A DNA stretch of 64,000 nucleotides from Sphingobium sp. (GTDB lineage: Bacteria; Pseudomonadota; Alphaproteobacteria; Sphingomonadales; Sphingomonadaceae): contig JALCRK010000008.1 of assembly GCA_022652485.1 (NCBI GenBank), positions 18,732 to 82,731 of the forward strand. The letters are read 5' to 3'. Within the stretch, counting starts at the first letter, position 1. Every line of letters begins with the position of its first letter. Shown here piece by piece: positions 55,103-56,798 of this stretch. Made by a program: the position numbers and the translations under genes. The notes below the pieces were generated by a model. It did not search any database, was not told where the DNA came from, and was given only the letters and a program-made list of their open reading frames with translations.

Positions 55103-55396
55103 ATGTCGCGCATTTGCGAACTGACCGGCAAGGGCCGCCAGGTGGGTCACAACGTATCCCACGCCAACAACAAGACCAAGCGGGTGTTCCTGCCCAACCT
55201 CCAGAACGTCACTTTGATGTCCGAGGCGCTGGAAACCAGCGTGAAGCTGCGCGTTTCGACGCATGGCCTGCGCTCGGTCGAACATAATGGCGGCCTCGAC
55301 AACTGGCTGTTGAAGACCGCCGACGACAAGCTGTCGCTGAAGGCGCGCCGCTTGAAGCGCGACATCGCGAAGAAGAAGGCCTCTGCCGCCGCCTGA
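55103..55396 (+). CDS. rpmB: 50S ribosomal protein L28
   Basis: [36 protein letters not shown]. Confidence 0.98.
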
Positions 55397-55423
55397 TTCG
55401 CGAATCGGTTCTGGATTACAGGG

Positions 55424-55449
55424 AAGCGGCTCTTTCGGGCCGCTTTTTT
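55424..55449 (+). terminator. Intrinsic terminator of rpmB
   Basis: AAGCGGC-TCTTTCGG-GCCGCTT followed by TTTT. Confidence 0.85.
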
Positions 55450-55463
55450 GTTGGGTTACCTTG

Positions 55464-55495
55464 ATCCGAAACAGGCAGCTCCGCTGCGTTCGGAT
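55464..55495. repeat. Nested hairpin between rpmB terminator and long hairpin
   Basis: ATCCGAA ... GCAGC-TCC-GCTGC ... TTCGGAT. Confidence 0.6.
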
Positions 55496-55586
55496 GTTCG
55501 GCACCAACCCTCTCCCCCGCCCAGCCACCCGATAGCATATCGCACAATATCGGGTGGCTGGGCGGGGGAGAGGGCTGGTGCCGAAC
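55496..55586. repeat. 91-bp long hairpin, 39-nt arms (38/39 complementary), 13-nt loop
   Basis: GTTCGGCACCAACCCTCTCCCCCGCCCAGCCACCCGATA-GCATATCGCACAA-TATCGGGTGGCTGGGCGGGGGAGAGGGCTGGTGCCGAAC. Confidence 0.95.
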
Positions 55587-55588
55587 CC

Positions 55589-56584
55589 TTACAGAGATTC
55601 ATCCAGCGCAAATTTCAGCAGCAGCGTGCGTTGCAGAAACAGGTGGTTGTCATCGGACACCATCCACAAGATCCGCTGGTTGCCGACCCGCTCCAGCGCC
55701 AGCCCCTCGAAATTGTCGGCCAGGATGGGCGGAGCGAAGCGCGCGATTTCCGGCCCGGTAATGACCGCGCCCGGCCTCATATGGCCAATGTCGACCAGCT
55801 TCAGTACCGCAGTAAAGCCATCGTAAAGCGTCGCGCGGCGATTGAGCACCAGCAGCTTGCCGTTGCCGATATAGACCGCGTCGGTCGGGTCATAGCCGGT
55901 GGGCGGCAGATAGCTCATGCGGATGGGCGGCGGCGTCCGCGCCTCGACCGGGTCGCCCGCGAACACAAGCATGTCGCGTCCGCCGTTCCGCCCCGGCGCG
56001 CCTTCGGAAATGGATATGAAGCGCCCGTCCGGCAGGCGCACCAGCGATTCGATGCTTTCGGTATCGGACCAGTTCGCCATCTCCCTCGGCGCGCGGCAGG
56101 TGCCGATGCTCTTAAGATCGCTCTTGTAGCGGCATATGAGCTGCATCAGCTCATAGCCGACCCAGACATGGGAGAAATCGGCAGCGGCGGCGAGGGATTC
56201 GCTGTCTTCCGGGCGCGGCATCCATTTCTTCTGGGGCTTGGCGGTGCGCAAGACCCGCGCGAGACCGATGAACCGGTCATGGCCAGCCGGCTCGGGGAAC
56301 TCGAACATCGCGCCGCCGTCACTGAGCGTCCAGATTTCGCCTCCTGGCCGGATCACCACCGACGACAACCCGCCGAACAACGTCCGGCCGCTCTTCAGCT
56401 GCCAGCCCCCCAGATAATGTAACGGCCCCACTGCCACCTGCCCCGGATCTGCGGAATTGAGCACGAGCGGAATCGCCTCGATCGCCACGGGTCCGTCAGT
56501 AGGCCGCCCCGGTTTGGTATTCAGCGACAAGCCTATCCCGGCAACCACGAGACAGACGAACAGGACGGCAATCAACCAGCGCAT
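55589..56584 (-). CDS. Esterase-like activity of phytase family protein
   Basis: Signal-anchor N-terminus, FGGLSSVVIRPGGEIWTLSDGG, ESIESLVRLPDGRFISISEG, FEGLALERVGNQRILWMVSDDN. Confidence 0.8.
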   Translation of the reverse strand: MRWLIAVLFVCLVVAGIGLSLNTKPGRPTDGPVAIEAIPLVLNSADPGQVAVGPLHYLGGWQLKSGRTLFGGLSSVVIRPGGEIWTLSDGGAMFEFPEPAGHDRFIGLARVLRTAKPQKKWMPRPEDSESLAAAADFSHVWVGYELMQLICRYKSDLKSIGTCRAPREMANWSDTESIESLVRLPDGRFISISEGAPGRNGGRDMLVFAGDPVEARTPPPIRMSYLPPTGYDPTDAVYIGNGKLLVLNRRATLYDGFTAVLKLVDIGHMRPGAVITGPEIARFAPPILADNFEGLALERVGNQRILWMVSDDNHLFLQRTLLLKFALDESL

Positions 56585-56597
56585 GGGCCGGACCTAG

Positions 56598-56641
56598 GCT
56601 ATCGGCTCGATAATTTCACTCATTATTATCGAGCCGATAGC
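56598..56641. promoter_or_regulatory. 44-bp palindrome (17-bp perfect arms, 10-nt loop) in divergent intergenic region
   Basis: GCTATCGGCTCGATAAT-TTCACTCATT-ATTATCGAGCCGATAGC. Confidence 0.9.
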
Positions 56642-56798
56642 GCCGCTTCGGCGCTCATAACAAAACTGAACATTTGCTGACACGGCCATTCAGTATAGGC
56701 TCAACGCCAGGAGCCGATAACGGTCATGACAACGGAACGATGATTCGGCTTTCGCACAAAGCCAGCGCTCCGGGTCGGAATTGGCAAGGAGCACAGAC

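Follow-up and report, generated by a model that had tools for sequence, protein, structure and literature searches.

Hairpins downstream of rpmB in Sphingobium are very probably the remnant of an IS1031-type MITE

The nested hairpin and the long hairpin that lie between rpmB and a convergent gene in a Sphingobium genome very likely belong to a MITE in decay, of which they make up the left two-thirds. The element would have been moved in trans, in all probability by an IS5-family transposase of the IS1031 group, entered a stop codon, and kept its arms alike through recopying. What started as an odd hairpin can now be placed in a MITE family, with an IS as the probable partner. The overall picture is that of an IS1031-type MITE in a decayed state, known and ordinary in kind; the family, its matching transposon and the mode of arm maintenance seem to be new, as far as the literature searched shows (no description of this MITE family was found in that literature, which included few subscription papers and left out ISfinder).

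Results

Three hairpins at the end of rpmB

The window, that is, the entire 64-kb stretch of DNA that was analysed, contains three hairpins downstream of rpmB, all of them where the preliminary description had placed them (Table 1): the rpmB stem with its T-run, a smaller nested hairpin, and a long hairpin in which 38 of the 39 nucleotides of the arms are complementary across a 13-nt loop and which stops 2 bp short of the stop codon (TTA) of the convergent gene. The long hairpin is the strongest close inverted repeat in the window, and the RNA fold of positions 55410-55600 reaches -131.5 kcal/mol versus -69.5 +/- 4.4 for shuffled sequences (z = -14.1). The open reading frames that cross the hairpins are spurious, as had been proposed. 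A known structured RNA was rejected because nothing at the hairpins matches Rfam at the gathering score: a tRNA is the sole such match in the window, no family reaches the cut-off at the hairpins, and the sub-threshold matches there, on both strands, are miRNA-like hairpin models. The runner-up among the close inverted repeats is an imperfect one of 28 nt (82%) at 56587-56652, immediately upstream of the phytase-like gene.

Table 1. Features of the rpmB-phytase-like gene interval in the window
Feature	Coordinates	Strand	Evidence
rpmB, ribosomal protein L28 (context)	55103..55396	+	PF00830, 9.6e-27
rpmB intrinsic terminator, host feature outside the element	55424..55449	+	about 30 genomes of the genus keep this stem and T-run after rpmB, with or without the element
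TTA, possible left target duplication	55456..55458	.	matches TTA at 55589-55591; suggested by position; TNA duplications exact in intact copies
left terminal repeat, shortened: CCTTGATCCG (when intact in G000: GAGTCTGTTTGATCCG)	55459..55468	.	intact ends at G000 C45 and C6, L007/L023
left side hairpin H1	55463..55495	.	about 20 other copies have this hairpin, on a constant side
left arm of core palindrome A	55496..55534	.	inverted-repeat scan, repeat copies, covariation
loop of core palindrome	55535..55547	.	both orientations occur among copies
right arm of core palindrome A	55548..55586	.	beyond it, right side hairpin and right terminal repeat missing compared with intact copies
stop codon (TAA) of convergent gene; probable right copy of target TTA	55589..55591	-	ORF 55589-56584; intact copies insert in stop codons
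convergent gene, protein with phytase-like esterase domain (context)	55589..56584	-	PF13449, 1.1e-28

A dispersed repeat family in the same genome

A search for the palindrome in the genome to which the window belongs (G000, 3.06 Mb) found it in about 30 places, and about 41 sites were recognised there in all, short, non-coding, dispersed and without a transposase; the small hairpin sits on the constant side of many of the palindrome copies. The preliminary description had allowed for a simple terminator without other copies, which is not what this genome holds. According to a simple gene caller, 39 of the 41 sites are intergenic; the flanking genes are codirectional at 22 of them, divergent at 10 and convergent at 7, a mix near that of the window itself, and there is no clear orientation bias. 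A terminator or a device of convergent genes was rejected since the sites show no orientation preference and the element is not conserved at rpmB.

Some copies have been altered internally. Foreign hairpins (for example, TTCAAACGAG...CTCGTTTGAA or CCCCACAAAGTAATACTTTGTGGGG) interrupt one of the two arms of the core palindrome in G000 (L034) and at five further loci (L276, L130, L112, L120 and L132), as if palindromes were insertion targets of other palindromes. The loop of one copy contains a tandem expansion, three units of ATAGGATACC (L046, near 1600), and another copy is flanked by a 20-bp direct repeat, GGTTGACGCGGCGTTAAATG, which is longer than the TNA duplication (L037, around 1540-1690).

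Intact copies, target duplications and an empty site

Complete copies, retrieved by searching for the outer ends, are 142-154 bp long in relatives and are bounded by TNA on either side. Inward from it come GAGYCYGTTTGGAAA on the left and TTTCCAAACRGRCTC on the right, and between these ends lie a side hairpin, the long palindrome and, in most copies, a second side hairpin. The terminal inverted repeats, GAGYCYGTTTGGAAA at both ends of the intact copies, are degenerate in the window copy, and relics of the ends are found at four loci in G000 (L007, L023, L003 and L002). All 13 distinct copies with intact ends in the genus are flanked by exact 3-bp TNA target duplications; the four 142-bp copies in one genome, G042, have TAA, TAA, TGA and TCA. 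An insertion in G042 (L230) lies in a TAA stop codon, and the orthologous site is empty in G000, G032, G054 and G060, with a single TAA in G032 (GGCGGCTAAGCG) versus TAA-element-TAA in G042 (GGCGGCTAA-element-TAAGTCG). Together, the repeat family, the terminal repeats, the TNA duplications, the empty site and a matching IS (see below) identify these repeats as a MITE family, so that the mobile palindrome suggested in the preliminary description is borne out.

On one strand or the other, any TNA triplet reads TAA or TGA, which explains why the hairpins are often found at stop codons; a MITE that enters a stop codon would restore the stop through the TNA duplication. Six of the 13 intact copies are in the stop codon of an ORF of more than 100 codons versus the 17% expected from the share of such positions among those TNA sites of the window that are permissible (p = 0.014). 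The excess is modest, the copies may be non-independent, and selection against other sites could have a share in it.

There are also shorter derivatives, 48-122 bp in length, from which the palindrome has been lost wholly or in part. Three mini-elements, of 76 bp (L275, 1503-1579), 57 bp (L288, 1503-1560) and 48 bp (L290, 1503-1551), have the same ends and TTA duplications without the core palindrome, which may be dispensable or else may have been deleted after insertion.

A matching transposon of the IS1031 group

By searching the MITE terminal repeat itself, we identified a 905-bp transposon, identical in two genomes and with a close copy in a third (G111, G016 and G128), that has the same ends as the MITE and TNA duplications (TTA, TGA and TTA). 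It encodes a 265-aa transposase (NF033580 IS5, 5e-72; PF13340 and PF01609, DUF4096/DDE_Tnp_1), and its IS5-family DDE transposase, GAG ends and 3-bp TNA duplication, the last a published mark of the group (PMC12016507), place it in the IS1031 group. The shared ends make it probable that this IS moves the MITEs: a transposase of this type would act in trans on the GAGYCYGTTTGGAAA ends, insertion occurring at TNA with duplication of the TNA. The 30 top-scoring DUF4096 loci were also considered as partners and rejected, having other ends (CTAG-flanked GCGGCGTGGACAAATT and others). The partner that shares the MITE ends exactly comes from other species of the genus. In G000 itself, the IS of this group has different ends, GAGGCTGACC, and TAT flanks, which suggests that the G000 copies may no longer be mobile.

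The window copy as a remnant

Between the two TTA triplets (Table 1), the window copy begins with CC-TTGATCCG..., continues through the left hairpin and the palindrome and ends in AACCC, without an intact terminal repeat. The triplets, short as the matching sequence is, may represent the target duplication. In that case, the likeliest course is insertion into the TAA stop codon of the phytase-like gene, after which the right hairpin and most of the terminal sequence (the right end and part of the left end) would have been lost. The near identity of the arms had been read as a possible sign of recent origin, a reading that finds no support here: the window copy has decayed ends, and in G032 an element with both hairpins occupies the same place.

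Why the two arms agree

Across 31 copies, 93.5% of the stem cells pair, and 12 of the 32 pairs change on both sides; 47 cells show double changes, whereas shuffles give 17.6 +/- 3.1 and sliding the register gives 0-6. Among five close copies in G042, the right foot of L230 has been converted en bloc, from CGGTGCCGG to CCGCACCAG, into the exact complement of the left foot; in L228 and L234, the loop runs in opposite directions. Such block conversion and loop flipping among near-identical copies indicate that arm-to-arm copying happens and that self-templated repair may suffice. The arms, then, would be kept alike mainly by recopying one from the other, via template switching or hairpin repair, and the same recopying would also flip the loop. 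Active maintenance of the arms, the other possibility raised in the preliminary description, is in part supported by the covariation and the arm-to-arm copying.

The same covariation, with 12 stem pairs changing on both sides and more than twice the double-change cells of the shuffles, would also be expected if the palindrome were selected as an RNA hairpin at the 3' ends of genes, be it as a transcript end, an RNase III site or a protection of the mRNA end, and the extreme stability of the fold and the location of the window copy between two convergent genes also speak for that scenario. We nevertheless consider it unlikely: copies lie between divergent and codirectional as well as convergent genes, in proportions near those of the window; in most orthologues of the rpmB site, the terminator is kept while the element is missing, cut short or exchanged for other repeats; and arm conversion can produce covariation without selection. 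That compensatory stem changes can stem from arm-to-arm copying is a reason for caution in covariation-based RNA discovery in bacteria.

Comparison with known repeats

The elements resemble MITEs of the IS5 family (IS1031 group) in their short length, the lack of a transposase, the GAG... ends, the 3-bp TNA duplications and the presence of a matching autonomous IS in the genus, but differ in the internal, near-perfect palindrome of 32-39 bp and the side hairpins, which are absent from the IS, and in that the window copy is a remnant. With REP/BIME repeats and REPINs, which are associated with RAYTs, they share the many intergenic palindromes per genome and the composite hairpins. If the repeat were of the REP/BIME type and mobilised by a RAYT (Y1, HUH) transposase, dozens of such copies would be accounted for; however, this origin is highly improbable, given that no Y1_Tnp gene, and hence no RAYT, is present in G000, nor is there a Y1_Tnp gene in G032, G042 or G054, that the RAYT-like genes of G060 are unflanked by the repeat, and that intact copies carry terminal repeats and TNA duplications instead. 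The genes in G060 form a nearly identical pair, of RAYT size and spaced by 2 kb, that encodes Y1 transposases (L108, G060:C1:742401-744653).

The CcrM-associated intergenic repeats of Caulobacter (CIR1-4), roughly 110 bp in length, are intergenic, two-armed stem loops from another alphaproteobacterium (PMC2229807), with GANTC in the terminal loop. GANTC is absent from the palindrome and the left hairpin of the G000 copies examined, and identity with CIR was rejected on this ground, by comparison with the description of CIR rather than by sequence alignment. QMITE2 of Coxiella burnetii, a stable palindromic MITE located mostly in 3' untranslated regions, for which partial alphaproteobacterial relatives have been reported (PMC5896051; PMC10969869), is similar by description and serves as a lead only.

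The rpmB site across the genus

Over about 30 members of the genus, rpmB and its terminator are conserved, and so, in most, is the convergent gene; a simple terminator scan of the window did not flag the rpmB terminator, though its stem and T-run are kept across the genus. The presence of the element at this site varies, as the comparison of relatives proposed in the preliminary description reveals: G000 and G032 have the small hairpin with the full palindrome, G042 has a truncated copy, G016, G018, G022 and G030 have partial copies, and in G054 no element lies between rpmB and the convergent gene. With the terminator kept while the intervening sequence varies, the first hairpin emerges as the host terminator and the other two as an insertion with a turbulent history. 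That the three hairpins, which do lie end to end after rpmB, form a single multi-part terminator is the least probable reading of all, one that synteny refutes for the second and third, considering that the rpmB terminator alone is conserved, that these two are missing or different in most members of the genus and that they recur at about 40 unrelated loci. In nine loci from different species of the genus (L059, L064, L071, L075, L078, L080, L082, L083 and L086), the same spot downstream of rpmB holds different, unrelated palindromic repeats.

Distribution of the core palindrome

A degenerate 29-nt pattern of the core, for which composition alone predicts about 0.14 matches in the whole collection, matched at least 116 stretches. 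Among the matches listed, all are from Alphaproteobacteria except for one unclassified MAG, with Sphingomonadales foremost and Kiloniellales, Hyphomicrobiales, Rhodospirillales, Kordiimonadales and Minwuia also represented. Sphingobium sp. DEHP117 (L186) has the same composite, and the core is present on one megaplasmid of Novosphingobium resinovorum. We tentatively entertain the possibility, although we would not favor it, that the core is a self-maintaining DNA module which, throughout Alphaproteobacteria, is common to MITEs differing in end type, with arms homogenised by copying and a loop that flips; covariation would then come from mutation and repair, mimicking selection for RNA structure. 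An automatic search for terminal repeats at the core loci of other genera yielded mostly noise. Three copies (L126, L173 and L185) have CTAG, not TNA, at both borders, which hints at one core on different end types.
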